Below, piece after piece: positions 676 to 18,029 of a stretch of 55,546 nt of DNA. The stretch is from the IMG/VR virus record IMGVR_UViG_3300017991_000132, positions 1-55,546 of that record. One strand, written 5' to 3'. Positions within the stretch are counted from its first letter, which is position 1. Every line of letters begins with the position of its first letter. The notes under the pieces are model-generated. The model was given only the letters and a program-made list of their open reading frames with translations, was not told the origin of the DNA and did no database searches. A program made the position numbers and the translations under genes. Origin of the DNA: a virus.

Positions 676-707
676 TCCCTTTTCTCCGTTTCTTCTGTTG
701 CCTACCA

Positions 708-1448: not shown

Positions 1449-1480
1449 CGTTTTCTCCGTTTCTCAATTCGTGCGACAAA

Positions 1481-2416: not shown

Positions 2417-2967
2417 CCTACTACCTCCGTTTCGTTCTGATACACCAGAGAATTGCAGTTGGGACAAATCCCCTGCGGGACCGTGTCCCCAGGAGAAACC
2501 CGATCTACCACCAGCGGGTCGGGCCAACGATACTTCAGCTTGCCTACCGGCCACCGGTTTCTTCCGCACGCAGGATTGCTGCACGTAAGCACAGGCTCCT
2601 CTGCGATAGCCTTCGCCAGATCGTCCAAGCTTACCTCGTCTACCTCACCGCCCCGGTAAACATAAGAGAAAAGAAACCCCTCGCAGTAGAAGGTCTGGTA
2701 GGACCCATCTTCCACAAAAGGCGCAATCTCCTCGTAGAACTTTTCCTCGTAGTTCGACGACCAATTTAAGCTATTCGGATAGGCGTCCACAATATCTCCA
2801 TCCTTCGTCATGCTCAACTCGATGCCGAAGTTTGCACAGACGTCATGGACGTCCTCACCTTTCGCAAACTCCTCCCCCAGCGAACGCAGGTGCTCCACCA
2901 TCGCTCCCACGTTTTCCTTTTTGATTTCGATGTTACCACCCTGACCAACGTATGCTGTCATACTCAT
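2404..2967 (-). CDS. Hypothetical protein with C-terminal zinc ribbon, 187 aa
   Basis: Begins MSMTAYVGQGGNIEIKKENV. The first 130 residues form an unrecognised alpha/beta-looking domain. The last 60 residues hold two paired-cysteine knuckles (CSNPACG and CPNC), a zinc-ribbon pattern. The ATG at 2967 follows GAAACGGAG (2975-2983), and a strong promoter lies at 3007-3035, making this the first gene of a transcript that continues into 2027-2416 and 1525-2025. Confidence 0.85.
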   Translation of the reverse strand: MSMTAYVGQGGNIEIKKENVGAMVEHLRSLGEEFAKGEDVHDVCANFGIELSMTKDGDIVDAYPNSLNWSSNYEEKFYEEIAPFVEDGSYQTFYCEGFLFSYVYRGGEVDEVSLDDLAKAIAEEPVLTCSNPACGRNRWPVGKLKYRWPDPLVVDRVSPGDTVPQGICPNCNSLVYQNETEVVGWHP

Positions 2968-3006
2968 GATGTTTCTCCGTTTCGCTCGTTTCCATCCGAC
3001 GTGTCA

Positions 3007-3898: not shown

Positions 3899-3934
3899 CT
3901 TTTTTCTCCGTTTCCAATTCACCAATCGAAAACG

Positions 3935-3963: not shown

Positions 3964-3998
3964 GAAAAAAATCGCACCGACCGCTCCCTCCAATATTC

Positions 3999-4014
3999 GG
4001 TTAAACCGAACGTC
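3999..4014. repeat. 16-base repeat GGTTAAACCGAACGTC, copy 2
   Basis: Identical 16-mer to 78-93 and to the reverse complement at 7234-7249. With its left flank it forms the palindrome TTCGGTT-A-AACCGAA (3996-4010). All copies are intergenic, so a regulator-binding site is likely. Confidence 0.7.
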
Positions 4015-4116
4015 CCAACCCACCTTCCCCCTTGTCAAGTTTTTATTCTGTTGTGTGAGAAATATTCGACAGGAAAGGTGGGAAGGGGTGGGGGCTCGAA
4101 CGGCCCCCGGAAACTC

Positions 4117-4911: not shown

Positions 4912-4963
4912 ACTCTTTCTCCGTTTCTCTCTTTCGAGTTTATCCTACGCCTTCCAATAAGGC

Positions 4964-6694: not shown

Positions 6695-6734
6695 TTCTTT
6701 TCTCCGTTTCTTTCCCTACTTGACAACGTCAAGC

Positions 6735-7067
6735 CTAGTGCCCATGCCCATGATGCCCACCACCACCACCCATCAGATGGGCCATGTTGTGCTGGTGTAC
6801 GAAGTTGGCCTGCGTCTGCGCCTGACCCATCGCCTGGCGGAACGCAGCACTGTTACGCTCCTGGAGCTTCGCCAACACACACAGGTCATACATCCCCTGC
6901 GGAAGTTGCGCCCCCACCACGCGGAACGTACCGTCGGGCTGCTTCACGATACGAGCCTGCCCCCGGGCCAAAGCATCCTCGATCTCCCGGAGCGCTCGCT
7001 TACGCTCCTCTTCCAGCCTCTGCCTCTCAGCCTCTGCCATCTTTCTTGCAATCACGTCACACGGCAT
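6735..7067 (-). CDS. Hypothetical protein with histidine-rich C-terminus, 110 aa
   Basis: The start MPCDVIARKM at 7067 has a GGAG site in CACAGGAGAAAGAAAATG. Residues 8-45 form a charged coiled coil (AEAERQRLEEERKRALREIEDALARG). The protein ends GGGGGHHGHGH, a glycine/histidine tail that would bind divalent metal. The leader has a broken form of the usual box (GAAACGGAAACAGAG followed by CAGGAG), as if it had been altered and rescued by a new Shine-Dalgarno. It precedes the AAA+ ATPase gene on the same transcript. Confidence 0.8.
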   Translation of the reverse strand: MPCDVIARKMAEAERQRLEEERKRALREIEDALARGQARIVKQPDGTFRVVGAQLPQGMYDLCVLAKLQERNSAAFRQAMGQAQTQANFVHQHNMAHLMGGGGGHHGHGH

Positions 7068-7113
7068 TTTCTTTCTCCTGTGGTCTCTGTTTCCGTTTCT
7101 CAATCACGCATCA

Positions 7114-7142
7114 AATATAATGCCGCCGCGTTTTTTCGTCAA
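7114..7142 (-). promoter_or_regulatory. sigma70-type promoter for 6735-7067
   Basis: TTGACG at 7142-7137, 17-base spacer, TATATT at 7119-7114, with A/T-rich sequence upstream of the -35. Confidence 0.8.
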
Positions 7143-7233
7143 TCAAATATTTTCGATCACGAATTTTTTTGCCCCTTACTCCCCCTACTAAACTATCACA
7201 CCCGCAACCTTCCACCTACTACCCCTCCCCTTC

Positions 7234-7249
7234 GACGTTCGGTTTAACC
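7234..7249. repeat. 16-base repeat, copy 3, inverted
   Basis: GACGTTCGGTTTAACC, the reverse complement of the copies at 78-93 and 3999-4014. It lies about 92 bases upstream of the promoter at 7114-7142. Confidence 0.7.
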
Positions 7250-7269
7250 AAATATCCATTTCCGAATTC

Positions 7270-7382
7270 GGACAAATCGGGTCCGATTATTTCGGTGTAA
7301 AATATCACACGCTTTACGAAGCCTCAGAGGAAACCTGAGCTCGCTCTAGGTTAGTAGACCACCCCTTATTTTGTATAGAGAG
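7270..7382 (-). repeat. Composite intergenic module, copy 1
   Basis: Read on the minus strand: the 15-mer CTCTCTATACAAAAT (7382-7368), then exactly 49 bases that are not conserved, then a 49-base block (7318-7270) that matches 8585-8537 at 46 of 49 positions. The block contains GTGTGATATTTTACAC and the palindrome AATCGG-AC-CCGATT. The variable segment can form a small hairpin CTCAG/CTGAG next to the conserved block. The module starts right after the stop of 7385-7720. The rest of the 7143-7269 spacer shows only the repeat at 7234-7249. Confidence 0.7.
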
Positions 7383-7384
7383 AG

Positions 7385-7720
7385 TTACTCAGCGCAGAGG
7401 ACCAGACCCTCGTCAGAATATTTCGAGTCGTAACAGCCACACTTATTGTAGCAGCGGGGGAGCACACACATGCGTTTGGTTTCCTTGGCCACGAGTGCCA
7501 TGAGTGCAGCAGCATCCTCGTCGTTACCGATGCCCATCTTCTCTTTGAAGTAGGAGGCAGTCAAGTAACCTTCGGGTTGCATAACCATGGACTTTCCACC
7601 ACGACTTCCTCTGTTAGTCCAACAGAATAAAATCATCGGCCAGCCATCGCCGCGCTCCACTTCTCCGATGTAGCACTCGTACCTGCTACCGTTGCCGGGC
7701 ATCCACTCGATAAATTTCAC
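7385..7720 (-). CDS. Hypothetical protein, 111 aa
   Basis: Not recognised. It begins MKFIEWMPGNGSRYECYIGEV from a GTG at 7720. The start is supported by AAAGGAGAAAGCCT before it and by overlap with the stop of 7717-8463, so the two are translationally coupled. The C-terminal half has five cysteines (CVLPRCYNKCGCYDSK), which may bind a metal. A role linked to the upstream GP88-family protein is possible because of the coupling. Confidence 0.8.
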   Translation of the reverse strand: MKFIEWMPGNGSRYECYIGEVERGDGWPMILFCWTNRGSRGGKSMVMQPEGYLTASYFKEKMGIGNDEDAAALMALVAKETKRMCVLPRCYNKCGCYDSKYSDEGLVLCAE

Positions 7721-8463
7721 AGGCTTTCTCCTTTCACGATCTTGTCCGCTTTCTTCGCCAGGCTACCGTGCGCCGGGAAGCCGATGATTGCTTTGCGGTT
7801 GCCCTTGCCACAGACCTTGCAGTCGATACACTGAATGTTCTCGTCGAGGATCGCAGGGCACGTAATGACGTGTCGACCTTTCGGAGTCTTCAGGCGGCGA
7901 GGGGAATCCATCGGAAGGACGGTAACCACGGGGCCGATGTCCAGGTCTGCCAGAGCGTCTGCGTGCTCGAGGTTATCCCCCGACAGATTCACCACGAAGC
8001 CCAGGGCATTCATATCCCGGATCACTTCCAGGTTATGCTGGGCCACCGCAGGGGCGACCATCCCCTTGACGGGGAGGGGGGAGTAATGCGTGTACGTGTA
8101 GCCGCCACGGTTACGCCCACCCGAACAGTTGGCCCTGGCCAGCTGCAGGCATCGCCCACGATGCAGTCTGTTATTGTACCCCGTCAGGTCACCAGACTGA
8201 TTGTGCCGCCACGTAGTTACGTCATCACCCAAGGCTTTTACGCGCTCGCAGAACTCCGTGAAGCTCGTGCCGTTTACGAGCCAGCCTTTCCCCAACTTGT
8301 GCCACACGAGCCCAAGCCGTCCCACCCTGGCGTAGCACGCTTCGCGCATGCGGCAAGAGGAAGGACACGTACCCTTGTGTGACATGGATACGGGAAGTTT
8401 TCCAGTCTTGCTGTTGCCAGATTTCGGGGTGAGAATAAATAGTTCTTTGTCGGGATGCTCCAT
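7717..8463 (-). CDS. GP88-family phage protein, 248 aa
   Basis: The start MEHPDKELFILTPKSGNSKT at 8463 follows GAAACGGAG (8472-8480). The pattern KLPVSMSHKGTCPSSCRMREACYARVG is the hallmark of the 'gene product 88' family of phage proteins: a cysteine cluster C-x3-C-x5-C near the N-terminus. A further C-terminal cluster CPAILDENIQCIDCKVCGKGN looks like a metal or iron-sulfur site. The biochemical function is not established as far as I know. It is expressed from the promoter at 8496-8524 together with 7385-7720. Confidence 0.85.
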   Translation of the reverse strand: MEHPDKELFILTPKSGNSKTGKLPVSMSHKGTCPSSCRMREACYARVGRLGLVWHKLGKGWLVNGTSFTEFCERVKALGDDVTTWRHNQSGDLTGYNNRLHRGRCLQLARANCSGGRNRGGYTYTHYSPLPVKGMVAPAVAQHNLEVIRDMNALGFVVNLSGDNLEHADALADLDIGPVVTVLPMDSPRRLKTPKGRHVITCPAILDENIQCIDCKVCGKGNRKAIIGFPAHGSLAKKADKIVKGESL

Positions 8464-8495
8464 TTTTGTTTCTCCGTTTCGTTGCTCCACCAATC

Positions 8496-8524
8496 AATTT
8501 AATTCGGTGGAACCAGCTTGTCAA
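8496..8524 (-). promoter_or_regulatory. sigma70-type promoter for 7717-8463
   Basis: TTGACA at 8524-8519, 17-base spacer, TAAATT at 8501-8496. It lies just downstream, in the sense of transcription, of composite module copy 2. Confidence 0.8.
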
Positions 8525-8536
8525 GAAATTCAAATT

Positions 8537-8649
8537 GGACGAATCGGGTCCGATTATTTCGGTGCAAAATATCACACGCTTCACGGATACTCCAGGGTAT
8601 TTTCCATTGCGCACGATAAGCTATTGCCCTCCCTATTTTGTATAGAGAG
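8537..8649 (-). repeat. Composite intergenic module, copy 2
   Basis: Same arrangement as 7270-7382: CTCTCTATACAAAAT (8649-8635), 49 non-conserved bases, then the conserved 49-base block (8585-8537). The variable part again can form a short hairpin (ATAC/GTAT) beside the block. It begins just after the stop of 8659-9207 and fills most of the gap before the promoter at 8496-8524. Confidence 0.7.
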
Positions 8650-8658
8650 AGCTACCCT

Positions 8659-9207
8659 TTAATTGACGAGAGAAAGGGAAGGGGCTTTGCGGGAGCCGTC
8701 TTCCACGTCGTCGTCTTTGATAGCTACAGCGATGGCTACAGCGTCTCGGAAAGAACGTTCAGTGACGTAGCTTTCAGGCGCGGCAGCGTCCTCTGCACAG
8801 GCTTCTTGGTACGACATTTTGCACGGGCCTGTGTCCGACACTACGCGGCCTGTACGGTTATCTGCCATAGCTGTCCGCGTCAGGATGTAGAGCTCGCCAT
8901 CCTTGCTACCTGTATCGCACGAGGTCATGGTGAGGGCGAAGAGGTGGCTCTCTTCGAGCAGCCTTTGGAACCTTTCCAGGTTGCCGTTCCTGTTGTCGAT
9001 AGAGGCAGCTCGAAGTCCGTTGATGTGTAGCTGGAGTTCTCCTGTGGATTCGTCTGGTAGGATGATCATGTTTTGGGGATCGAGTGAGAGGATCTCCAGG
9101 GTAGACCACAGGTGCTCCGGTAGTGTCACCATGACCACCGGGTAGACAGTCCCGGAAAACTGCTGCGCTTGTAAGTCGATGATGACCTGTAGGATGTCGT
9201 CACTCAT
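8659..9207 (-). CDS. Hypothetical protein, 182 aa
   Basis: Not recognised. It begins MSDDILQVIIDLQAQQFSG; the ATG overlaps the TGA of the upstream gene (ATGA, 9204-9207), indicating translational coupling. The protein looks alpha/beta and is acidic, with no membrane segment or catalytic motif I can identify. The stop is followed by composite module copy 2. Confidence 0.8.
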   Translation of the reverse strand: MSDDILQVIIDLQAQQFSGTVYPVVMVTLPEHLWSTLEILSLDPQNMIILPDESTGELQLHINGLRAASIDNRNGNLERFQRLLEESHLFALTMTSCDTGSKDGELYILTRTAMADNRTGRVVSDTGPCKMSYQEACAEDAAAPESYVTERSFRDAVAIAVAIKDDDVEDGSRKAPSLSLVN

Positions 9208-9758
9208 TGTGCGCCCGCTTCCGCAGCCCGACGTTCTTTCCCTCGGGCTACCATCTCTGCGGCTCGCTCTTCTCCATAACGAGCCTTCAGATCCTCATGC
9301 TCGGGAGTACCCGGAGTCTCGACCGCCTCGGCATAGCGTTGCATTTCCTTGAGCATCGCCACGTCCCGCTCGACCGTAGCCAGTGCCACAGTCTTTGCGA
9401 ACCACACCGGGAACAGCTTGTACGACACGTAGCCGCTACCACTCTCGTAGTACGGGACCGGCTCGGGCCAAGTGATGTCCGGGTCCTCTTTGTCAAGGTA
9501 ACCCGGGATGCGCTTCTCGAACGCCTTGACGTACACCTTTCGGTAGAAGTCCTCGAACTCCCTCCCGTCCAGCGCTTTGATCTCGGGAGCGCCCTCATCC
9601 TCCATGACCTCGGCAATCTCCCAGTACGCCTTCAGCAGCGCCCTGACGAGTGCCGACGTGTCGTAGCTGTCGAGGTCCGAGATTACCGCGCGAAGCACGA
9701 GCTCCTTGATCTCCTCGAGTTCTACCGCCTCACGATAAAAGAAAAGTTCCAGTGCCAT
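9204..9758 (-). CDS. Hypothetical acidic helical protein, 184 aa
   Basis: Not recognised. It starts MALELFFYREAVELEEIKEL at 9758 with GAAACGGAG at 9766-9774. Most of it is predicted by eye to be helical and acidic, with a short aromatic-rich segment around residues 95-120 (WPEPVPYYESGSGYVSYKLFPVWF). It is coupled by a 4-base overlap to 8659-9207 and follows 9780-10121 on the same likely transcript. Confidence 0.8.
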   Translation of the reverse strand: MALELFFYREAVELEEIKELVLRAVISDLDSYDTSALVRALLKAYWEIAEVMEDEGAPEIKALDGREFEDFYRKVYVKAFEKRIPGYLDKEDPDITWPEPVPYYESGSGYVSYKLFPVWFAKTVALATVERDVAMLKEMQRYAEAVETPGTPEHEDLKARYGEERAAEMVARGKERRAAEAGAQ

Positions 9759-9779
9759 GCCGTTTCTCCGTTTCCCCGG

Positions 9780-10121
9780 CTACTGCCGGTCCTTGTACGC
9801 TTTGGCCAGGAATGCCCGGTAGCCCTTCCAATCATGCACTATGCACGGGGCCTCGTCCAGCCAGAGAGGGCTCTCACGCTTACGCCACTCGCGAGCTTTC
9901 TCCATCTCCTCTTCATCGGCGTAGCCTTTTTCACAGGTACACACAACAGGCTCCTTGCGGACTGTCCTGCACCCACTGGCGAAAAGTGCCTTCACGAGTA
10001 TGTCGTACTCATTCTCGAACGCCACCATGATCGCCGCCTTGCCCAAGTTGTCACCTGTCCCGATGACAACAATCGCCTTGCGGTCCAAGCACAGAAGTTC
10101 GTAGAGAGTCGGGTCATTCAT
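9780..10121 (-). CDS. Hypothetical protein, 113 aa
   Basis: Not recognised. The start MNDPTLYELLCLDRKAIVVIG is set at 10121 because GAAACGGAG (10129-10137) lies just upstream; an in-frame TTG at 10139 is inside that box. The segment AIVVIGTGDNLGKAAIMVAF resembles a nucleotide-binding beta-turn-helix, but without a full motif. A CTCEKGYADEEEMEKAREW segment follows. First gene after the promoter at 10153-10181. Confidence 0.8.
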   Translation of the reverse strand: MNDPTLYELLCLDRKAIVVIGTGDNLGKAAIMVAFENEYDILVKALFASGCRTVRKEPVVCTCEKGYADEEEMEKAREWRKRESPLWLDEAPCIVHDWKGYRAFLAKAYKDRQ

Positions 10122-10152
10122 CTCGTTTCTCCGTTTCAAAAATCGTGATCAC

Positions 10153-10181
10153 AAAATATCAAATCGACTTGACGTCGTCAA
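10153..10181 (-). promoter_or_regulatory. sigma70-type promoter for 9780-10121
   Basis: TTGACG at 10181-10176, 17-base spacer, TATTTT at 10158-10153. A GTGATCAC palindrome lies just beyond the -10 (10145-10152). Confidence 0.75.
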
Positions 10182-10188
10182 GTATTTT

Positions 10189-10800
10189 TCACGGCCGCTT
10201 CCAAATTACTTCGCCGTCGCGCTCCACACGTAAAAGGTAGTTGTACATCTGAGGACGCGGTAGCTTGCTGCGCCCAAGACAATCATCTTCCACTAACGCA
10301 CTTTTGCCGTTGTTGTACACTCCCAGTAACGTGAGGACTTCTTCGTTGCCCATCCCGCCAAAGCACGAGAGCACGAGCTTGTCCCCCTTCTCCAAATCTT
10401 CCGCCAACGGTACTGAACCAGCTTTGGCAGCAGCTTCTTGAAACTCCTTGTCAAAGTAGATAGAATGCCAACGCCGGACGACTGCTTCAGCCTTGGTGTT
10501 GTCTACAGGACGGCCGTCTCTACGCTGGCCAAGCTTCGGGTGCTCCAGGAAAACAATGCTGCACGCACGATTCTTTTCGTACCACAGCTTCCCTCCCCAG
10601 AACTTTCCCAGGTACATCGCGTGCCGCGTAAGATTGCCTTCGGCCCAGGAAAGTGAAACGCTCAACCCACCATGTTCCGCGGTCCCATACCACGTTACCC
10701 CGCGCTCCAATTGTTGGGAATATTGCGCACGACCCCAGGGAGTAGAAGTTCCTTTGCCTTCCTCGAATCCTTTAATGTCCGCTACTTCCACTGTGCTCAT
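10189..10800 (-). CDS. Hypothetical protein, DUF7007-like pattern, 203 aa
   Basis: The start MSTVEVADIKGFEEG at 10800 is preferred because GGAGGTTGTG precedes it; a TTG frame extending to 10833 is possible. The N-terminal region has STPWGRAQYSQQLERGVTWYGTAEHGGLSVS, a TPWGxAQ ... HGG pattern that resembles DUF7007-type phage proteins with no defined activity. The family assignment is tentative. It is served by its own promoter (10836-10863). Confidence 0.75.
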   Translation of the reverse strand: MSTVEVADIKGFEEGKGTSTPWGRAQYSQQLERGVTWYGTAEHGGLSVSLSWAEGNLTRHAMYLGKFWGGKLWYEKNRACSIVFLEHPKLGQRRDGRPVDNTKAEAVVRRWHSIYFDKEFQEAAAKAGSVPLAEDLEKGDKLVLSCFGGMGNEEVLTLLGVYNNGKSALVEDDCLGRSKLPRPQMYNYLLRVERDGEVIWKRP

Positions 10801-10835
10801 CACAACCTCCAGCAGTTCGCCGTCCGACAACACAT

Positions 10836-10863
10836 ATTATGCACAGCAACTTTACGTTGTCAA
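10836..10863 (-). promoter_or_regulatory. sigma70-type promoter for 10189-10800
   Basis: TTGACA at 10863-10858, 16-base spacer, CATAAT at 10841-10836. The first 14 bases after the -35 C (AACGTAAAGTT) match the promoter at 1481-1508. Confidence 0.75.
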
Positions 10864-10865
10864 GT

Positions 10866-11024
10866 GAAATCGAATTTTATTAGTTCGAGTGCGAAATATC
10901 ACGCAAATAGCAGCTACATACCCGTAGCTGGTACTACAACAGGGCTTGGTTATCCGAACCAATAAAATCGGTCATTGCTCAATTTTGCCCTGCTCGGCCA
11001 GCTGGCTCACGTGATTACAGGTAC
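10866..11024. other. Intergenic region with possible structured leader
   Basis: No gene. On the minus strand it begins right after the stop of 11025-11408 with the spaced element GTAATCAC-N22-GCAAAATTGAG (11018-10978), also present at 43-3. It then holds a hairpin CAGCTAC/GTAGCTG (10911-10930) and the box GCGTGATATTTCGCAC (10904-10889) related to those in the composite modules. No T-tract terminator is seen. Confidence 0.55.
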
Positions 11025-11408
11025 TTAGTGGGTCCCGTTGAGTTCGCGGTTCACTTGTCTGACTACCATTTTCGCTTCTAGGTGACCCAGGTCCCCCAAC
11101 GCTACCAGCAAAACAGACCAAATCACGAAATGTGTGTGAGTAGCCATCAGCCGTTTGGCTGCGCGGCGTCCAGCTATTAGCTCGTCTCTATCTATCTGGA
11201 CGGAAACCGTCTTGCGCTCACGCTCATCCGTTACCCATTCTGGGAGTAGCTTCAGACTCTTCTCGTGCTCAAGGATTCCGTGTGCCGCTGCGTTAGCTGC
11301 CGAGACGTAATATTCACCAATCCTTTTACCTGTCTTCTCAGCAGCTTGCTTCACCATTCGTCTGGTCAACAAAGGAATACGCATGGATATGGCTTGATTA
11401 TTCTGCAC
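11025..11408 (-). CDS. Hypothetical protein, 127 aa
   Basis: Begins MQNNQAISMRIPLLTRRMVKQAAEKTG from a GTG at 11408 preceded by GAGGAG. The pattern of an N-terminal basic strand followed by two helices (RIPLLTRRMVKQAAEKTGKRIGEYYVSAANAAAHG) is reminiscent of a ribbon-helix-helix or toxin-antitoxin-type DNA-binding unit, but I cannot assign it. A hydrophobic stretch near THFVIWSVLLVALG is too short and mixed to call a membrane helix with confidence. Its leader box is repeated exactly before the vWA gene at 38195-38944. Confidence 0.75.
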   Translation of the reverse strand: MQNNQAISMRIPLLTRRMVKQAAEKTGKRIGEYYVSAANAAAHGILEHEKSLKLLPEWVTDERERKTVSVQIDRDELIAGRRAAKRLMATHTHFVIWSVLLVALGDLGHLEAKMVVRQVNRELNGTH

Positions 11409-11416
11409 GTAATCGA

Positions 11417-11432
11417 CTCCTCGTAATATTGC
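11417..11432 (-). repeat. Leader repeat GCAATATTACGAGGAG, copy 1
   Basis: A 16-base sequence including the GAGGAG ribosome-binding site of 11025-11408. An identical copy (38952-38967) precedes the vWA gene, so this is a second type of shared leader in the phage. Confidence 0.65.
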
Positions 11433-11444
11433 CTAGCTCCCTCC

Positions 11445-11472
11445 ATGATAATAAAGGACATTACATTGTCAA
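11445..11472 (-). promoter_or_regulatory. sigma70-type promoter for 11025-11408
   Basis: TTGACA at 11472-11467, 16-base spacer, TATCAT at 11450-11445. It overlaps the last codons of 11469-11732. Confidence 0.75.
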
Positions 11473-11732
11473 GTAGTTTCCTGAGCAATATACTCAGACA
11501 GCACCCTCCCATCCTTTTTCACGCGGAGCTCCGCCATATCGTACTTCACCAGATGGAATACTACTTCCACGTCGTTCCAGTAGAAATGACAATCTGTGTA
11601 CAAGGAGGCTTCCACGCGACGTACAGCTCGCTGTAGCGTCCGCGATAAAACAATATCCCCCTCGTCTGTCGTTAGATGGGTATGCTTGAACAGCTGTCGA
11701 TTGACAACTTCTATACGGCGATTCTTGGGCAA
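11469..11732 (-). CDS. Hypothetical protein, 87 aa, start uncertain
   Basis: Not recognised. I place the start at a TTG (11732) two bases after the ParB-like gene's TAG, which gives a coupled gene beginning LPKNRRIEVVNRQLF. An upstream GTG at 11786 would overlap the neighbour by about 50 bases and encodes a low-complexity AEAEAD stretch. The protein has alternating beta-like stretches (CHFYWNDVEVVFHLV, DMAELRV) and no known motif. Confidence 0.6.
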   Translation of the reverse strand: MPKNRRIEVVNRQLFKHTHLTTDEGDIVLSRTLQRAVRRVEASLYTDCHFYWNDVEVVFHLVKYDMAELRVKKDGRVLSEYIAQETT

Positions 11733-11734
11733 GC

Positions 11735-12604
11735 CTACTCGCCGTCCGCAACCTCGGTCAGCTTCAGCTTCAGCTTCCGAGTACACGCCTTCAGCAGCGC
11801 CTCCCCGTCAGCCTCACCCGCGGCGAACGTGAGCGCCATGATCACCAGCTTCCGAGCATCCCCCGTGGGCACCGTGTCACCCTTCATCTCGGACTGGTTC
11901 AGCCCCCGCATGATCTTCACGATGTCACGCTTCCCAGGACGACGGGCCATCCCCGTCACCTGCGCGGCAGCCTTGGCCGTCTTGCGCCGCTTGCCACCCG
12001 AAACCACGAGCACCTTGTCCAGCATCCTCTTCTGGTCCGCAGCCTTCACCTTCCGAGCGATGATCAGCCCAGCCTCGAGAGTCACCTTCCCCGTGTCCAC
12101 CGCGTCCTTCAGAGCCTTGCACGCTCCGGCCATCGTCGTCATCTGGTCCACCCAGCCGACACTCTTGTTGACCTTCACGCTGATCTCCTTCCCCGAAAAC
12201 CCGCGCTTCTTGTACTCGCGCACCAGCGCCACCTTGTCCGTCAAGGTGAAGTCCTCTCGGTTCAGATTCTCCTTCACCGCCAGGTCGAGCGCCTCGTCCT
12301 CGTCCACGTCATGCACGATGACAGGAATGCGCATCTCCATCTCCGGGTCCTCGGAGAAAATCTTGCGTAGAGCACGAATGCGCCGCTCACCCGCAATCAG
12401 GATGAAAGGCTGCTCCGGGTTCGCCCGGTCACGCCGCACCCACAGCGGGTCCAGTACCCCGTTCTCCTTGATGTCCTCCGCCAGATCCTCGATCCCCTCG
12501 AACACCGTTCGCGGGTTGAAACCATCGACCACCTGAATGCGCTCGGGGCTGTCCACCGAGTACGCATTCGACCGAAACACACCATCCAACTTTCTCATCG
12601 ACAT
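11735..12604 (-). CDS. ParB/Spo0J-like N-terminal domain protein, 289 aa
   Basis: Starts MSMRKLDGVFRSNAYSV with an excellent GGAGGTGAT site. Residues about 25-120 match the ParB N-terminal (sulfiredoxin-like) domain: PRTVFEGIEDLAEDIKENGVLDPLWVRR followed by the box II motif LIAGERRIRAL, then helical KEN-like segments (ENLNREDFTLTDKVALVREYKKRG) and an HTH region (FSGKEISVKVNKSVGWVDQM). In plasmids and phages such proteins bind specific DNA sites and hydrolyse CTP, serving partition or regulation. No ParA partner is visible here, so a regulatory or nuclease-related role is equally possible. Confidence 0.9.
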   Translation of the reverse strand: MSMRKLDGVFRSNAYSVDSPERIQVVDGFNPRTVFEGIEDLAEDIKENGVLDPLWVRRDRANPEQPFILIAGERRIRALRKIFSEDPEMEMRIPVIVHDVDEDEALDLAVKENLNREDFTLTDKVALVREYKKRGFSGKEISVKVNKSVGWVDQMTTMAGACKALKDAVDTGKVTLEAGLIIARKVKAADQKRMLDKVLVVSGGKRRKTAKAAAQVTGMARRPGKRDIVKIMRGLNQSEMKGDTVPTGDARKLVIMALTFAAGEADGEALLKACTRKLKLKLTEVADGE

Positions 12605-12648
12605 TTAATCACCTCCGGTAATTTGTTTTCCGTCCGTTCACGCAATCA

Positions 12649-12677
12649 AATATAATTGCCGAACAATACAACGTCAA
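12649..12677 (-). promoter_or_regulatory. sigma70-type promoter for the ParB-like gene
   Basis: TTGACG at 12677-12672, 17-base spacer, TATATT at 12654-12649. It is one of the best matches in the window. Confidence 0.82.
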
Positions 12678-12703
12678 GTAAAAAATCGAATTTTCTGTGC
12701 AGA

Positions 12704-13003
12704 TTATTTGGCGGCGAGAATACGCCGAGAAGGAAGGTCCGCGTAGACAGTGAAGCTTTTTGTTTGGCTTACAGGACGATAACCACGATGTTTCATCGTG
12801 CGTGTGTTGACCAGGCGCTGGAACTTTTCCTTGCCAGTCTGGAACCCGAAGTCGCACATATCGTTCAGGTCATCACGCATAAAGCGTGGAGGCCATAGAA
12901 AGGAGCCCGGTGTGGGAGTAAACGTAAGCCCGAGATGTTGCTGGTAGTACCAGTCCACAATCCATTGGTTCTGCGTTTCACCAGTGAGGGCGTTGCGCAG
13001 CAT
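12704..13003 (-). CDS. Hypothetical protein, 99 aa
   Basis: Not recognised. It begins MLRNALTGETQNQWIVDWYYQQHLGL a few bases after the stop of the methyltransferase gene, with only a weak AAAG site, so it probably depends on translational coupling. It is rich in aromatic and basic residues and has no clear motif. Confidence 0.7.
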   Translation of the reverse strand: MLRNALTGETQNQWIVDWYYQQHLGLTFTPTPGSFLWPPRFMRDDLNDMCDFGFQTGKEKFQRLVNTRTMKHRGYRPVSQTKSFTVYADLPSRRILAAK

Positions 13004-13008
13004 CTTTA

Positions 13009-13416
13009 CTAGGTCATCTTGCTCCGCACGATGTGGATTATTTTGTCAGCTCGAGCCTTGAGCTTCCGAATGATCAGACGTTCATCTTTCAGGCGCACGA
13101 CGTTCAGGACGAACGAACTGAAGGCGATATCAAATTTTTCACCCAGCTTCGGTTCCTGTGTAGTGACGCTACCCTGCTGCCACCCGTTGCCATGAGTACG
13201 ATGGTTGGGATCGTAAGCGTAGACCTTACAGCCCAATGCACGCAGGTAGTCTGCGTTGCGCCCGGATTTACCTGCGCCCCAGTCGAGCACGCGCGTACCT
13301 TTTTTGAAGAAGCCTTTCTTCGCGAGCCAGCGGATGGCTGGGGATGCTTTGCCACTGATAGACGTGGCACCCTTTTCTACGGCTGCGCCTTTATAGGCGC
13401 GTTTCTTTTTCGACAT
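13009..13416 (-). CDS. Small SAM-dependent methyltransferase-like protein
   Basis: A 135-residue protein with a class I methyltransferase core. Motif I is TRVLDWGAGKSGRNADYL (residues about 41-58), with the glycine-rich SAM loop. The acidic end of strand 2 is KVYAYDPNHRTHG. FDIAFSSFVLNVV is the motif IV region. It is far shorter than typical methyltransferases (about 200-250 residues) and lacks an obvious substrate domain, so the target is unknown. The ATG at 13416 follows GAAACGGAG (13424-13432). Confidence 0.85.
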   Translation of the reverse strand: MSKKKRAYKGAAVEKGATSISGKASPAIRWLAKKGFFKKGTRVLDWGAGKSGRNADYLRALGCKVYAYDPNHRTHGNGWQQGSVTTQEPKLGEKFDIAFSSFVLNVVRLKDERLIIRKLKARADKIIHIVRSKMT

Positions 13417-13441
13417 GTGCGACCTCCGTTTCGCTACATCG

Positions 13442-13470
13442 AACGTAGCAAATCCGCATTACGACGTCAA
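13442..13470 (-). promoter_or_regulatory. sigma70-type promoter for 13009-13416
   Basis: TTGACG at 13470-13465, 17-base spacer, TACGTT at 13447-13442. Confidence 0.75.
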
Positions 13471-13485
13471 GTGGAAACGGAATTT

Positions 13486-13683
13486 TTAGAGGCCGAAGAA
13501 GAGGGAAAGGTGGGAGTCGCTTCGACGTTGGAGCTCCTCTTTCGCAACATGGATAGCCAGGAGCTTTCCGTCGAAGTGGTCTGTCAGTGGTCGTAGAAGG
13601 TTTCCTGCTTCAAGCACCTTGACGATTTCCTCGTCGGTGTACTCGGTGAAAGAATCCCTTAGATGCTTTTCATACGCTGTCAT
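13486..13683 (-). CDS. Hypothetical small protein, 65 aa
   Basis: Not recognised. The start MTAYEKHLRDSFTEY at 13683 is chosen over the in-frame ATG at 13701, because that ATG lies in the leader box GAAACGGAG (13691-13699), which must act as the ribosome-binding site. The protein is helical and charged. It lies directly downstream of the structured RNA at 13719-13843, so it may be translated from read-through of that transcript. Confidence 0.7.
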   Translation of the reverse strand: MTAYEKHLRDSFTEYTDEEIVKVLEAGNLLRPLTDHFDGKLLAIHVAKEELQRRSDSHLSLFFGL

Positions 13684-13718
13684 TGGTTGCCTCCGTTTCA
13701 TTGGTGTTGGGTTGGTAG

Positions 13719-13843
13719 TGGAGCGCCAGGGATCGAACCTGGATCGGGTACGGAGCTTGCGAAACGGAGATGAAAGGCAAGCAGCCTAGGCGGGATCAGT
13801 TGTCGGACGGAAACCGCTACCCGATAGCCAAATCCTTCGCTCC
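13719..13843 (-). ncRNA. tRNA/tmRNA-like small RNA with anti-leader loop
   Basis: On the minus strand the RNA starts GGAGCG (13843-13838) and ends CGCTCC (13725-13720), which pair as an acceptor-like stem. Just inside the 3' end is a perfect T arm: stem CCAGG/CCTGG around loop TTCGATC (13741-13725). There is no normal D or anticodon arm. Instead ATCGGGTA (13825-13818) pairs with TACCCGAT (13750-13743), extended by CGG/CCG past a bulge, like helix P2 of tmRNA. Inside is a hairpin GCTTGC/GCAAGC (13782-13777 and 13760-13755). Its 16-base loop contains TCTCCGTTTC, the exact complement of the GAAACGGAGA leader shared by phage genes. A promoter places the RNA start at or next to the first G. At about 125 nt it is too long for a tRNA and too short for a normal tmRNA; the fold is by eye. 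Confidence 0.7.
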
Positions 13844-13851
13844 TATGTTCA

Positions 13852-13879
13852 AGTATAACTACTCGTTATTGGATGTCAA
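13852..13879 (-). promoter_or_regulatory. sigma70-type promoter for the small RNA
   Basis: TTGACA at 13879-13874, 16-base spacer, TATACT at 13857-13852. Initiation 7-9 bases downstream falls on 13845-13843, the predicted 5' end of the RNA. The -35 lies within the last codons of 13859-14209. Confidence 0.8.
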
Positions 13880-14209
13880 GTCTTTCCTCGGATTATTTTT
13901 CTTCTTTCTTTTCGTACGCTTAAACGACTTGTCGTAGGGTGCTCGGCAAGGCATCTCTGCGTAGAGCTCTTTGGCTTCTGCGCGGGAGATTTGGCACGCC
14001 AGGATGTGCCCCTTGATGATGCTGATGACTATGAAATATTTATCATCTTTCATGCGTCGTCGCACCCACACCAGGGCTGACGTGCTAGAGGAGTCCACGG
14101 CTATGTCTCGCCACTTGTCTCCTTCGGCGCCCTTCCAGTCTTCTCCTGTAAGGGAGGTCTGGTAGTTCAGGGGAGCCATCTCCAGCAGCTTATTTTTAGC
14201 GTTACTCAT
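13859..14209 (-). CDS. Hypothetical protein, 116 aa
   Basis: Not recognised. The start MSNAKNKLLEMAPLNYQTSL is set at 14209; the longer frame to 14254 overlaps the neighbour and adds only arginines. A compact central region, TSALVWVRRRMKDDKYFIVISIIKGHILAC, looks like a small beta-sheet domain, and the tail is strongly basic (KSFKRTKRKKKNNPRKD). The ribosome-binding site is weak (GAAGTAG). Its 3' end contains the promoter of the small RNA. Confidence 0.75.
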   Translation of the reverse strand: MSNAKNKLLEMAPLNYQTSLTGEDWKGAEGDKWRDIAVDSSSTSALVWVRRRMKDDKYFIVISIIKGHILACQISRAEAKELYAEMPCRAPYDKSFKRTKRKKKNNPRKDLTSNNE

Positions 14210-14234
14210 ACAGCTACTTCTATTAAGTATGTTG

Positions 14235-15341
14235 CTACGCCGCCTCCGCTTCACGCTCGCTCAGGATACGCTTAGCTTCCTCTTCGGCCAGCTTCACTTT
14301 TTGCTTCCAGGCGCGCACCTTCAGCGTAAGGCCGAGGGTCATCTCCCTGCGGGCCCAGTAGTTCTTGTGCCGCTTGCTAGGCTTGTAGGCCGTCTCCCAC
14401 GGCTTACCCCAGAAAGCCCAAACAGGAACTTCCACTCCAGTATCCTCGTCACCGTTACACCAGGCTACCGGGTCCATACCCTTCAGCCCGTGCTTGATGA
14501 ACGCAGCCTCGCTCACCCGGATAGGGAAGTTCAGACGCTTGATGAGAGCCCGAAGCTTCGACAGATGCTCCTCAGCAGCTTCCATCCCAGCTCGAGTCTC
14601 CGCCACTTCCAGGTAGTCCCCTTCCAGCTCGAAACCTTCCAGCTCCGCCTCGAAGGCCATGACCTCGACTTCCAGCTTCGCTCCCGTTTCCTTGGAAAAG
14701 TAAGACCCCTTTTCTACGGGGAACTTCTTCCGAAGCTTCCGCACCACAGCCCCGTAGTGCTGACTCTCGTCCTGCAGACGAAGCACAGCAGCCTTGGCCA
14801 CGAGATACGGACGACCGTAAATACTCGACCAACGCCCAGGGTTCACAGTGTAGGTCAGCTTGATTTCGTCGGCCAGCTCTCCGCTGTCTCCGAAGATCTC
14901 GATGGTCTGCCACGCATCCTCGTCCCGGAACTCCCCGTCCGCTCCACAGAAGTTGAAAGCGCGAAACGCTCCCACCCCTCCGTCCTTGATGACCTGAGCA
15001 TCCTTGATCAGCAGCCCCAGGTTCGGAAGATGCTTATGGCACGACGGTGCCAGCACTTCCCCATGACGGTTGTCCCGCGACAGAACGATTTCGTTGCTGC
15101 GCTCCACCCGAGGACCAGCTGCCCGGTAGGTCGGGATGTTGATGACGGTATTACCCTTCACCAGCTCCATGATGAGGGCAGGCAGGTCCAGCTCCATCGT
15201 GGTAGTCCCATCCTCACCCTCGAACTGCCGAGGCTTACGTCCCTTCAGGTCGCAGCCCCACCCCTCAAGGTAATCCCCCACCTCAGCCACTACGTCGCGG
15301 CTGCGGTCACTCAGTTGATCGAGAAATTTCTGAAAATCCAT
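14235..15341 (-). CDS. Hypothetical protein, 368 aa
   Basis: Not recognised. The start MDFQKFLDQLSDRSRDVV at 15341 follows GAAACGGAG (15349-15357). The first 220 residues look alpha/beta with several short conserved-looking stretches (LSRDNRHGEVLAPSCHKHLPNL, NPGRWSSIYGRPYLVAKAAV). The last 150 are helical and basic. There are no membrane helices or signal peptide. It is the first gene after the promoter at 15370-15398 and probably shares its transcript with 13859-14209. Confidence 0.85.
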   Translation of the reverse strand: MDFQKFLDQLSDRSRDVVAEVGDYLEGWGCDLKGRKPRQFEGEDGTTTMELDLPALIMELVKGNTVINIPTYRAAGPRVERSNEIVLSRDNRHGEVLAPSCHKHLPNLGLLIKDAQVIKDGGVGAFRAFNFCGADGEFRDEDAWQTIEIFGDSGELADEIKLTYTVNPGRWSSIYGRPYLVAKAAVLRLQDESQHYGAVVRKLRKKFPVEKGSYFSKETGAKLEVEVMAFEAELEGFELEGDYLEVAETRAGMEAAEEHLSKLRALIKRLNFPIRVSEAAFIKHGLKGMDPVAWCNGDEDTGVEVPVWAFWGKPWETAYKPSKRHKNYWARREMTLGLTLKVRAWKQKVKLAEEEAKRILSEREAEAA

Positions 15342-15369
15342 TTTGCTTCTCCGTTTCAATTGCTCTCAC

Positions 15370-15398
15370 ATAATAACGACGCATCAATACGTCGTCAA
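15370..15398 (-). promoter_or_regulatory. sigma70-type promoter for 14235-15341
   Basis: TTGACG at 15398-15393, 17-base spacer, TATTAT at 15375-15370, with the A/T-rich ATTTTTTTC upstream. Confidence 0.82.
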
Positions 15399-15428
15399 GA
15401 AAAAAATGCGAAAACAACTAACGGAGAG

Positions 15429-15878
15429 CTACTGCGGAAGGCCCAATTCTTTGGTTCCCTTGTACCATTCGGTAAAGGGTTTCCACGCTCCACCCTTCGG
15501 ACCACTCATCCGAAAGTCTCCCACCTCTACCTCTAAATATTTATTCGAGTTAGCGTCCCGCATCTTGAGCACCACACTCTTTCCCTTGTCTACCTCTGCC
15601 CTGCGCAGAACGTCTTCCACCCGCATGACATCCTTCATGGTTGGCTTCCGGATGACAATAGAACCCATTTCTGTGATTCGCTTGTTCACCTTGTCCGTCC
15701 TCCCCAGGTGCTCAGCTGTCACCCTACCCCTCGCGTCGTCCAACGCTACTACCATCTTTTTCTTCATACGCTTCGTAGCACGCTCAGCGATAGGACGAAA
15801 CGCTAGCTTATCCACACCCTTTGGGAATTCCTTTACGCGGATGATGAAATCTATCACGACGAACTTTTCCTGTTCCAC
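15429..15878 (-). CDS. Hypothetical protein, 149 aa
   Basis: Not recognised. It begins MEQEKFVVIDFIIRVKEFPK from a GTG at 15878, preceded by ACGGAGGTTTGCT, a partial form of the regional leader box. It is a basic alpha/beta protein with no catalytic motif seen. It is probably the last gene of the transcript that begins at the BrxL homologue. Confidence 0.75.
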   Translation of the reverse strand: MEQEKFVVIDFIIRVKEFPKGVDKLAFRPIAERATKRMKKKMVVALDDARGRVTAEHLGRTDKVNKRITEMGSIVIRKPTMKDVMRVEDVLRRAEVDKGKSVVLKMRDANSNKYLEVEVGDFRMSGPKGGAWKPFTEWYKGTKELGLPQ

Positions 15879-15936
15879 AGCAAACCTCCGTGTACGTAAG
15901 TCTCCCCTCGCATTTTACAAGATAGCCTGGAGATTC

Positions 15937-16233
15937 TTAGCCAGCAGATTTGCGGTCTTTTTCGATACGGTCCAGCGCTTCTTGCATCTTGCGTTGCCAC
16001 TTCTTCGTAGAACGAGGCTTCTCCTGATACGCTTTCTTTCCCGGGGCCTTACGCCGCTTCCCCCACACAATCTCCGTCGCACCCATGTACAACTGGCAAG
16101 CTTGCGCCAGGTCGATACCGTCACGCCTACCAGCTCTGTCTACGACGAAATACTTGTCCTGTGCAGGAGTCGTGCACAGCGTGTGCCCGTCTTCCAGTTT
16201 CGCCAAGGGCTGTATCTCTGTGCTATGGCTCAT
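15937..16233 (-). CDS. Hypothetical protein, 98 aa
   Basis: Not recognised. It starts MSHSTEIQPLAKLEDGHTLC; the ATG overlaps the 3' end of 16223-16561 and has GAGGGAG before it, so it is coupled to that gene. The N-terminal half looks like a small beta fold (GHTLCTTPAQDKYFVVDRAG). The C-terminal half is a very basic helix (KRRKAPGKKAYQEKPRSTKKWQRK). Confidence 0.75.
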   Translation of the reverse strand: MSHSTEIQPLAKLEDGHTLCTTPAQDKYFVVDRAGRRDGIDLAQACQLYMGATEIVWGKRRKAPGKKAYQEKPRSTKKWQRKMQEALDRIEKDRKSAG

Positions 16234-16561
16234 TGGAAATCTCCCTCCGCACGCGCCGCTTGGTCCGCTCTTCCAGCACTCCCTTCGGCGCCCGTGTCAA
16301 GTCCCGTGGCAGAACGTACTTGAAGTCGTAGTAGTCGAAGTAGCGTGTCCACTCTTCGTCGTCTTCCAGCACAGCTTTTACCGAAACCTCAGCGCGCAGC
16401 TTTCCATCCTTTCGCTTGAAGTCGATGACCTTCCCGAACGCTTGTACACCCTCCCACTCAAACTCCACCATGTTCCCAATGGAAAAGCCATCCATCTCAT
16501 CTTTGCTGGCACGCTTTCCACGAGGGCCTTTGTAGTTTTTAAGATGTTCTCCTCTAGGCAT
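16223..16561 (-). CDS. Hypothetical protein with SH3/KOW-like core, 112 aa
   Basis: Begins MPRGEHLKNYKGPRGKRASK with a GGGAGGAGGG site at a good distance. Residues about 26-60 (FSIGNMVEFEWEGVQAFGKVIDFKRKDGKLRAEVSV) read as a small five-strand SH3/KOW-like barrel, which often binds nucleic acid or protein; this is a by-eye fold guess. It lies 15 bases after the stop of the BrxL homologue and is probably co-transcribed with it. Confidence 0.75.
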   Translation of the reverse strand: MPRGEHLKNYKGPRGKRASKDEMDGFSIGNMVEFEWEGVQAFGKVIDFKRKDGKLRAEVSVKAVLEDDEEWTRYFDYYDFKYVLPRDLTRAPKGVLEERTKRRVRREISNEP

Positions 16562-16576
16562 TATTCCCTCCTCCCA

Positions 16577-17995
16577 TTAAGGTACCAGAGCTAGCTTCCG
16601 CCGACCCACCGAGAAGTCTTTCGTAGTAAACTCTCCCGGCGCCATCTTCGCCAACTCATTATTCACTCGCTGCCGAAGCTCCGCAGCAAAGTTTACCAGC
16701 TGCTCCAGCTCCGCATCCGTGTACTGGTCGTGAGGATACACGAGCTTCACCAGCCCAGACACCAGCTTCTCCACCGCCACCACGTCACGCCGTGTCATAT
16801 TTGACGCCAACGAAACCTGATGTGCCACGTCACGCCGGTCCCGCGTCCGCAACGTTCCCAGCACCTGGCCCAGATAGTCCACCACCAGGCCGTATCCCTG
16901 GCTAATCGAGGTCGGACTCAGTTTCGGAATTTCCCATCCTGGTAGATACCCGTGCACCCTGTCCAGAAAAGCGGTGTCCTGCAGCATCGCGGGCAACGGC
17001 TCGAACAGATGTCCGTACCTACCATCCGGTTCCTTCCCCACCACATCCAGGTTCCCTGCTAGAACCATAGAGGAATCTGAAGAGTACGTCTTGCCCCCTC
17101 GAGCAAACTGCCCCGACTCCATGAAATCCTTCAGCATGGAAATAGTCGAGATGTTGTCGAACCTCGTGCTTGCAATCTCGTCCAGCTGCACAATCTTGTA
17201 CGACCCCAGGATGCCCATCGTTCCCGTAGTTACGTTGGCAAACAGGCTCGCCGCCGACACGTTCGCTCCCGAGGCAGTGTACACAGACGGGGATACGTTA
17301 CGCAGCAGAAACGTTTTACCAGTCTGCCGAGGACCCAGCTCCATCACGTTCAGGTTGGGCTCCACAGCGGGCGCCAGCCGCACCAGGTACAGCAGCTTCT
17401 CCCGCTCGCTCAGCCTATCCGTCTCGTACCCAACCGACGTCAGCAGAACGTCGATCCACTCCTCCGTCGTAAACTTCCCCCGCCGCTGGGCAAAGTCTTC
17501 CGCGCTGGGGCAGTCTGCTTGGAAGGGCATCACGCCGACCACCACTACTCTGTTCGGGCTCCGCGGGCCAGCGGGTGGAAGATACTTCAGGCGGTACGCG
17601 CCCCACAGTCCTCCCGTTAGCAGCCGGGGATAGTCATCCACGATCTGCTCCAGGATTTCTGCACGGTTCTCCCCGAGGAAAGTGAGCGCGCACACGAGCG
17701 CACCTGTTTTGAGGTTGACGGTTACCATCGCTTTGTCGATGATGACAACCTCGTGTTCCTTGACGAGCTTGGCCTTAACGACTTCGCGGGTATCGGCTTC
17801 GGGGAAGATCTTGGCCACGTGTTCGCGCATGCGTTTCATATCAGCTTGCGCTTGAGATTCTTTGACGTGGTTGGCGATCAAATATTCGACAACGTACTGG
17901 GGGATGCGGGGGAGCCCGGCATCGCGTACGAGTGCCTTGCGGACCACTACTCCGTCGAAGATGCGTCTGAGCTTATGTACTGTTTGAGACTTCAT
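16577..17995 (-). CDS. BrxL-like AAA+ protein lacking the C-terminal Lon-like domain
   Basis: A 472-residue protein; the start MKSQTVHKLRRIFDG at 17995 follows GAAACGGAG (18008-18016). It aligns from end to end with the N-terminal and AAA+ parts of BrxL, the Lon/MCM-like protein of BREX systems. Shared features are the N-terminal LRRIFDGVVVRKALV and LLTGGLWG segments, FTTEEWIDVLL, Walker A GPRQTGKT (221-228), Walker B VQLDEIAS (D272, E273), MKDFMESGQFARG-type text (here starting LKD), and DRVHGYLPGWEIPKLSP. BrxL is usually near 680 residues; this copy stops after the AAA+ lid at YPHDQYTDAEL and lacks the Lon protease-like C-terminus. No other BREX gene is visible. A DNA-translocating or helicase role is likely; defence or counter-defence is inference. 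Confidence 0.9.
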   Translation of the reverse strand: MKSQTVHKLRRIFDGVVVRKALVRDAGLPRIPQYVVEYLIANHVKESQAQADMKRMREHVAKIFPEADTREVVKAKLVKEHEVVIIDKAMVTVNLKTGALVCALTFLGENRAEILEQIVDDYPRLLTGGLWGAYRLKYLPPAGPRSPNRVVVVGVMPFQADCPSAEDFAQRRGKFTTEEWIDVLLTSVGYETDRLSEREKLLYLVRLAPAVEPNLNVMELGPRQTGKTFLLRNVSPSVYTASGANVSAASLFANVTTGTMGILGSYKIVQLDEIASTRFDNISTISMLKDFMESGQFARGGKTYSSDSSMVLAGNLDVVGKEPDGRYGHLFEPLPAMLQDTAFLDRVHGYLPGWEIPKLSPTSISQGYGLVVDYLGQVLGTLRTRDRRDVAHQVSLASNMTRRDVVAVEKLVSGLVKLVYPHDQYTDAELEQLVNFAAELRQRVNNELAKMAPGEFTTKDFSVGRRKLALVP

Positions 17996-18029
17996 CCGTT
18001 GTAACACCTCCGTTTCGCATCGCACATCA

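Follow-up and report, generated by a model that had tools for sequence, protein, structure and literature searches.

In S. aureus, the host-encoded RNAs RNAIII and RsaE carry C-rich loops that pair with many Shine-Dalgarno sequences, at the ribosome-binding sites of several mRNAs; to our knowledge, RNAs of this type have no tRNA-like body and no regulon-wide box that changes together with the loop. Phages have antisense RNAs of their own. The C4 RNA of P1 and P7, in the passages cited here, is cut by RNase P from a longer transcript and covers a ribosome-binding site (PMC5320573, PMC12197685). In phage T4, the RegA protein is described in the cited account as a competitor of the ribosome for the sites where translation of about 30 phage mRNAs begins (PMC3014915). 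In the cluster K mycobacteriophages, a 13-base box termed “SAS” contains a Shine-Dalgarno core, stands before 11-19 genes and is conserved beyond what pairing with 16S RNA accounts for; its trans partner is reported as unknown (PMC3203893).

The RNA described here shares features with each of these systems. Like C4 RNA, it is a phage RNA with a loop suited to a ribosome-binding site, but C4 RNA (RF01695), as the cited passages present it, is about 77 nt long, has three stem-loops and is described for ant mRNA, whereas the RNA considered here matches about twenty leaders and ends in a T arm and an acceptor stem. As with RegA, one phage product would address many phage mRNAs; RegA, however, is a protein whose sites have no clear consensus in the part of the account cited, whereas in the system proposed here an RNA would take its place, at sites that have an exact box in common.

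The RNA in the window phage

The window, which is the whole stretch of DNA analyzed (55,546 bases; IMG/VR record IMGVR_UViG_3300017991_000132, here G000), is identical in the stretches compared to the longer contig G001 (IMGVR_UViG_3300018080_000098, 349,793 bases). A window position p corresponds to p+12915 in G001, where the RNA occupies 26,634-26,758. A relative, G006 (IMGVR_UViG_3300017963_000190, 260,067 bases), was brought in by a DNA polymerase scan, its polymerase being about 60% identical to that of the window phage, and the gene order around the RNA is common to the two. A first-pass annotation of the window had proposed a distinct, promoter-preceded tRNA/tmRNA-like RNA with a loop matching a regulon of leaders. 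Re-reading the minus strand from 13843 to 13719 confirmed its letters and coordinates. The elements of the locus, in order of transcription, are these:

13852..13879, minus strand: promoter TTGACA-N16-TATACT, 11 of 12 consensus bases
13719..13843, minus strand: tRNA/tmRNA-like body with anti-leader hairpin, about 125 nt, reading GGAGCG...CGCTCCA
13838..13843, minus strand: acceptor stem, 5' strand GGAGCG, same sequence in G006
13818..13825, minus strand: P2-like helix, 5' strand ATCGGGTA, in the tRNA-like fold
13790..13817, minus strand: hairpin 1, base GCGG/CCGC, in the tRNA-like fold
13755..13782, minus strand: hairpin 2, stem GCTTGC/GCAAGC, which in the fold displays the anti-leader loop
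13761..13770, minus strand: anti-leader loop TCTCCGTTTC, exact complement of GAAACGGAGA (plus strand)
13743..13750, minus strand: P2-like helix, 3' strand TACCCGAT, in the tRNA-like fold
13726..13742, minus strand: perfect T arm CCAGG-TTCGATC-CCTGG, in the tRNA-like fold
13720..13725, minus strand: acceptor stem, 3' strand CGCTCC, same sequence in G006
13486..13683, minus strand: small gene, 65 aa from the ATG behind its box, directly downstream of the RNA

The promoter claimed ahead of the RNA is thus present as an 11/12 match at 13879-13852, with 8 nt between its -10 hexamer and GGAGCG. The acceptor-like stem, perfect T arm, P2-like helix and GCTTGC/GCAAGC hairpin that had been described are all present or foldable, with an acceptor of 6 bp, a tRNA acceptor minus one pair. 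The full loop of hairpin 2, CTTTCATCTCCGTTTC, contains TCTCCGTTTC, and its claimed exact complementarity to GAAACGGAGA holds. All of TCTCCGTTTC is predicted to be unpaired (0.98-1.0) save one base at 0.37. The optimum fold of the whole RNA, at -47.4 kcal/mol (z -2.47; 2 of 200 shuffles equally good), opens the T arm for other pairs, and the tRNA-like fold, obtained by forcing the acceptor, T arm and P2, lies at -43.7 kcal/mol, 3.7 kcal/mol weaker. A descriptor combining acceptor and T arm gave no second copy in the examined parts of G001 and G006. A plus-strand reading frame across the RNA (GAAACGGAG-ATG, 55 aa) was set aside, zero bases separating its box from its ATG.

By the tests run, the RNA is not a tRNA, a tmRNA or a C4 RNA. 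ARAGORN calls no genes in the window or on the G006 stretch (L182), with no tagged tmRNA in either, and Rfam gives no match in the window at gathering score. The tRNA family RF00005 matches G001 at 20 places, the lowest at 183,381, and not at the RNA; all 20 lie over cut-off within G001:C1:183381-333877 and none in the window. The 6-bp rather than 7-bp acceptor and the lack of an anticodon arm in the fold common to both phages likewise depart from a tRNA. Four places in G001 match the tmRNA model RF00023 at E values up to 10, none over cut-off and none at the RNA; the permuted tmRNA model RF04321 scores 10.4 bits against a cut-off of 47 on the window RNA, through the T arm only; and the C4 model RF01695 finds nothing in G001 or G006 at E values up to 10. 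On the G006 copy, the nearest sub-threshold Rfam match is the tRNA-like mascRNA at 14.3 bits. A likeness to tmRNA (RF00023, RF04321) would lie in the possible tRNA-like fold, in which the acceptor and T arm enclose an unpaired D-like stretch and a helix of the P2 type. The differences are that no tag reading frame was found in the RNA, that its acceptor has 6 bp, and that its third acceptor pair is A-U, whereas in tmRNA that pair is G-U.

What the RNA does have is a loop complementary to a ribosome-binding site, as in C4 RNA, and, judged by sequence, its own promoter and predicted short or imperfect pairing with several separate mRNAs, as in trans-acting small RNAs. It would appear to belong with the trans-acting antisense RNAs directed at ribosome-binding sites, among which its body is unusual and its set of matched targets unusually wide. 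The promoter lies just upstream of the RNA, so that its 5' end may need no RNase P cut. The first-pass annotation knew of no described phage system of this kind, which stands for regulon-wide targeting and not for the antisense principle, since the C4 RNA of P1/P7 is already a phage antisense RNA on a ribosome-binding site. In the titles and abstract openings of the literature searched, a scope outside which most subscription papers and preprints fall, no phage RNA pairing with a regulon of its own leaders was found.

Two small stable RNAs of the T4 tRNA cluster, rnaC (139 nt) and rnaD (119 nt), fall in a similar size range, and rnaC (L191:1409-1547, minus strand) ends in a perfect T arm, CCGGG-TTCGAAT-CCCGG. 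CUCC is absent from both, and after reading and folding of both sequences a relationship to the window RNA was unsupported.

The leader box

The annotation had placed a nine-base core before 14 genes in the first 18 kb, and 14 minus-strand sites, from 684 to 18016, are indeed there. Each is a match to GAAACGGAG:

684..692, minus strand: leader box of an early-region gene
1455..1463, minus strand: leader box
2425..2433, minus strand: leader box
2975..2983, minus strand: leader box
3906..3914, minus strand: leader box
4919..4927, minus strand: leader box
6702..6710, minus strand: leader box of an AAA ATPase gene
8472..8480, minus strand: leader box
9766..9774, minus strand: leader box
10129..10137, minus strand: leader box
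13424..13432, minus strand: leader box of a methyltransferase-domain gene
13691..13699, minus strand: leader box of the gene directly downstream of the RNA, probably same transcript
15349..15357, minus strand: leader box
18008..18016, minus strand: leader box of a BrxL-like gene

Together with the complement within the RNA, these make 15 matches in the window, against 0.82 expected, a count that none of 100 shuffles reached. In the 68,461 bases of G001 covered by the 9-mer counts, GAAACGGAG is the commonest coding-strand 9-mer, with 20 copies, every one of them having a start codon at most 13 nt away (ATG in 19). Across the whole of G001 there are 27 sites, 23 on the minus strand, 20 of which lie inside the first 31 kb, and 4 on the plus strand, comprising the RNA and three other places with the complement. 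In many leaders the sequence is GAAACGGAGAAAC, and 15 of the 20 box leaders match the RNA over 10 bases; genes past 18 kb have ordinary GGAG leaders. Promoters with at most 3 mismatches stand upstream of 11 of 20 boxes in G001 and 13 of 21 in G006, compared with 11/300 and 13/300 random positions, and in both phages the promoters of the RNA and of the box genes resemble each other.

That the GAAAC part of the box is not required by the 16S anti-Shine-Dalgarno, as had been argued, is mostly, though not fully, right; if the 16S tail of the host ends CCUCCUUUCU, some pairing of GAAA with it would be possible across a one-base bulge. The chance of finding the 9-mer's complement in 125 nt, put earlier at about 1 in 2000, recomputes to 117/262144, or about 1 in 2,240.

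A homologous RNA whose loop differs with the box

Only two phages in this analysis, G001 and G006, have both the RNA and a matching box. The G006 homologue lies at L172:1266-1389 on the minus strand, between homologues of the window genes 13862-14260 and 11738-12604 (ParB) and on the same strand as these. Its sequence is GGAGCGAGGTGGTCTATCGG...CTGATCTGGGTTCGACTCCCGGCGCTCCC, preceded by a promoter TTGACG-N17-TATCCT (3 mismatches) with 7 nt from the -10 hexamer to the RNA. Relative to the window RNA, its T arm, CTGGG-TTCGACT-CCCGG, has one pair in which both bases differ (A-U to G-C) and another in which a single base differs; its P2, ATCGGAA/TTCTGAT, has two pairs changed on both sides and one on a single side, and is without the eighth pair; at the base of hairpin 1, AAGC/GCUU, three of four pairs are changed on both sides. 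The stem of its hairpin 2 is GCTTG/CAAGC.

One topology is possible for both RNAs, with a tRNA-like domain made up of acceptor, T arm, stemless D-like loop and P2 that lies 3.7 kcal/mol above the optimum in the window RNA and 1.0 kcal/mol above it in G006. For stem co-variation, named in the first-pass annotation as a check, hand-set helices allow 28 pairs to be compared: 19 do not differ between the phages, 2 differ in one base and 7 in both. This count depends on the hand-set alignment, since MAFFT shifts the inner helices and leaves just 11 of these pairs, those of the acceptor and T arm, in common columns.

The boxes of the two phages differ. GAAACGGAG occurs only 4 times in G006, where the commonest coding-strand 9-mer over the 100,595 bases counted is CGGAGGTAA, with 21 copies, all 21 before an ATG; in the whole of G006 it is found at 25 places, 21 on the minus strand and 4 on the plus strand, one of these being the RNA and three other places the complement. 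The loop of the G006 RNA is TTTACCTCCGTTC, of which RNA positions 73-81 exactly complement CGGAGGTAA; at the homologous place, positions 75-83 of the window RNA exactly complement GAAACGGAG. Given the same event at a homologous place in G006, a chance origin of the loop complementarity appears very unlikely. The fit has its limits: several leaders nearer the G006 RNA read GAACGGAGGTAA, with 12 bases complementary to the loop, while many of those farther away read AACCGGAGGTAA, one base longer, and fit the loop incompletely; many leaders read AACCGGAGG whereas the loop fits AACGGAGG. In the predicted ensemble the G006 loop is partly open (0.2-0.96).

How well the loops fit leaders in general was compared by exchanging 16-nt loops between the phages, using leaders of ORFs of at least 80 aa defined by a simple ORF rule on uncurated genes, with “early” as a positional label inferred from place in the genome. 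The phage's own loop pairs better than the other phage's with 23 of 36 early-region leaders in G001 (13 worse, p=0.0017) and with 44 of 62 in G006 (18 worse, p=7e-6), the G006 early range being 18-66 kb, widened from 18-62 kb after the strong pairing of the BrxL leader was noticed. Shuffles of the full loop match the own median in 0/300 cases for G001 and 2/300 for G006, and shuffles that keep CTCC in none of 300 for either phage. In G001, pairing of -12 kcal/mol or better is predicted for 22 of 36 leaders in the early region and for 0 of the 22 outside it; in G006 the counts are 35 of 59 and 8 of 47. The two loops used for these counts were unequal in length (16 and 22 nt), and the eight G006 leaders outside the early region include that of BrxL, at 64,724. 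Because the box was defined by frequency, contrasting early with other leaders is in part circular; contrasting own with swapped loops is not. The BrxL-like gene (window 16577-18016, minus strand; L172:3288-4724 in G006) has the Pfam domains BrxL_N and BrxL_ATPase (BREX Lon-like) and is 60% identical between the phages; the predicted pairing of its leader, at -18.5 kcal/mol, is the strongest in G001, and at -20.1 is also strong in G006.

Loop changes that track changes in the leader box, which the annotation had named as the test of its proposal, are thus found in one relative, G006, and the two-phage comparison supports a distinct RNA of the kind it described. The matched changes suggest that one RNA may control the translation of a whole viral gene set.

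Proposed mechanism and competing explanations

The preferred reading, to which we assign a probability of roughly 0.6, is that a trans-acting antisense RNA covers the Shine-Dalgarno sequences of an early regulon and represses their translation, its 3' end being freed by host tRNA-processing enzymes. The RNA would be transcribed from the sigma-70-type promoter that resembles those of the box genes, with its 5' end at the acceptor stem, and host enzymes of tRNA processing, recognizing the acceptor/T-arm body, would probably separate its 3' end from the mRNA downstream. The hairpin loop would bind the leader box of each of some twenty early-region mRNAs through a stretch of 9 to 14 bases, masking the Shine-Dalgarno and stopping translation as the stable RNA builds up, and the shut-off of early genes could leave ribosomes for later ones. 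That the RNA is transcribed, processed at its 3' end, stable and paired with leaders in the cell, and that it represses them and does not activate them, are inferences. Repression would be expected, since the paired bases include the Shine-Dalgarno itself and occlusion is the simplest outcome, for which T4 RegA and the C4 RNA of P1/P7 are precedents. Against this reading, the RNA and its targets use the same promoter class, and a repressor would be made alongside its targets, although a stable RNA that accumulates could give a delayed shut-off despite the shared promoter class. Also against it, the tRNA-like fold is not the minimum-energy one, and 13 of 36 leaders in G001 and 18 of 62 in G006 favor the other phage's loop.

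The shared promoter class would suit a system in which the RNA pairs with the leaders and activates them, its body binding the ribosome or a factor while the loop recruits or holds phage mRNAs for the 16S tail. A tRNA/tmRNA-like body and leaders conserved past the Shine-Dalgarno would also suit such an adaptor, for which we know of no precedent in bacteria. Pairing would cover the very Shine-Dalgarno that the 16S RNA needs, which makes activation unlikely, and ribosomal protein S21, considered for this model, was found in neither G001 nor G006. A role in cis, with the RNA as a structured 5' leader of the 65-aa gene whose loop hides that gene's own ribosome-binding site, draws on the arrangement downstream: no terminator was found between RNA and gene, and there is no space for a second promoter, so that the primary transcript probably runs on into the box-led gene. 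The gene is also kept behind the RNA in G006 (L172:1032-1238; 21/67 identical, E 6e-8 in a single comparison), and in G001 the loop matches the adjacent box over 9 bases. The cis leader is not the best partner, however: its pairing is -14.1 kcal/mol in G001, where the early-region median is -14.8, and -10.8 in G006, where that median is -12.55. In G006 it reads AACGGAGAAA, without the GGTAA that the loop complements and that distant leaders have. A freed, trans-acting RNA is therefore favored, and a purely cis role is quite unlikely. The product of the small gene, which ends HLSxFFGx and has no Pfam match in either phage, could be a partner of the RNA.

Two further explanations would detach the RNA from the phage regulon. 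ACCUCC is the usual anti-Shine-Dalgarno core, and the G006 loop contains it, as would be expected of a mimic aimed mainly at host mRNAs and shutting down host translation; but the G001 loop is without ACCUCC, and the loops fit phage leaders so far past the core that shuffles keeping CTCC lose the fit (0/300 in each phage), and this explanation is slightly less credible still than the cis role. That the RNA derives from a tRNA or tmRNA, has some other function and is complementary to the leaders by accident would accommodate the resemblance of its T arm and acceptor to tRNA-Ala. It is barely credible when, at a homologous place in two phages with differing boxes, the loop complements the commonest coding-strand 9-mer of each.

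If the antisense reading is true, the RNA would be the equivalent of RegA in T4, except that a single small RNA would reach about twenty viral genes by way of a leader they have in common. It would also be a candidate cause for start-associated boxes conserved past the Shine-Dalgarno, a question left open for the cluster K phages, and would suggest a general search, for the complement of the commonest leader box on a phage's own coding strand. Tentatively, and with somewhat less than even confidence, the RNA may be taken as an undescribed kind, a tRNA/tmRNA-like anti-leader RNA acting as the single translational master switch of an early regulon and evolving with its own box, on a principle that arose independently elsewhere, for example in cluster K.

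Further carriers and the cluster K parallel

Among named phages, no nucleotide relative of window positions 12500-15500 was found. The RNA stretch itself matched 9 Mycobacterium phage records over 24-29 bases (7 annotated as tRNA-Ala, 1 as tRNA-OTHER and 1 without a feature), and for DNA polymerase and topoisomerase II every match in a named phage was below 60% identity. Scans of viral contigs with T-arm patterns, BrxL, a structural protein and ParB returned G001 and G006 as the only carriers. The other T-arm-pattern loci of one scan proved to be tRNAs called by ARAGORN, and eight loci of another were inspected. The leader pattern scan gave no relative among the matches listed. Four closer relatives by polymerase (L164-L167, 72-77%) have contigs that end short of the RNA region and in which GAAACGGAG is absent; a search of genome contigs gave four matches at 23-30%.

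The SAS of the cluster K phages is unrelated to the window box in sequence and host. In Anaya (JF704106), genes 96 and 97 are separated by 385 nt (L193:31683-32067), and this gap contains a reverse copy of SAS (12/13 bases). The copy lies within a hairpin loop, GCGCGG-CCTCCTATCC-CCGCGC, read on the same strand as the genes. Over 30 shuffles of the 32.8-kb Anaya stretch, 0.03 such matches are expected per shuffle; the fold of the whole stretch is no better than that of shuffles (z -0.54). A region like this gap is matched in 177 phage records, from which 14 phages, picked from a spread list of 40, were aligned together with Anaya and Pixie, the last being uninformative. The loop retains CTCCTATCC in 7 of the 15 informative phages; another 4 carry a pyrimidine loop that has diverged, and the remaining 4 have no such loop. 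In Krueger and Hammy, both with diverged loops, the SAS copies found are unchanged (4/4 and 6/6), so that loop changes there do not follow the box, although the two can still pair in part. TM4 has no anti-SAS site at 3 mismatches; Pixie and ZoeJ have two each, all with 3 mismatches, and one further single-mismatch site in ZoeJ is the SAS of a reverse gene. With an anti-SAS loop that is inexact across the cluster, cluster K may be a partial, independent parallel, a lead and not a confirmation.

Several other elements were seen along the way. In another viral contig (IMGVR_UViG_3300028597_000046, L011:400-640, minus strand), a further long acceptor/T-arm element, roughly 125-130 nt in size and bounded by CGGAGCG/CGCTCCG, is uncalled by ARAGORN. 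In the window, a 54-base stretch between neighboring early-region genes is repeated at 7265-7318 and 8533-8585 with 93% identity. Within G006:C1:19951-49790, the intergenic repeat TGGTAACGCGTGAGGG(TTTAACCC) occurs at 14 places, and on the plus strand TTGAC often stands some 15-20 nt ahead of it. Another repeat there is TTTTGTATAGAG, with TTTTGTATAG present at 11 places; both TGGTAACGCGTGAGGG(TTTAACCC) and TTTTGTATAGAG are possibly promoters or regulatory sites.
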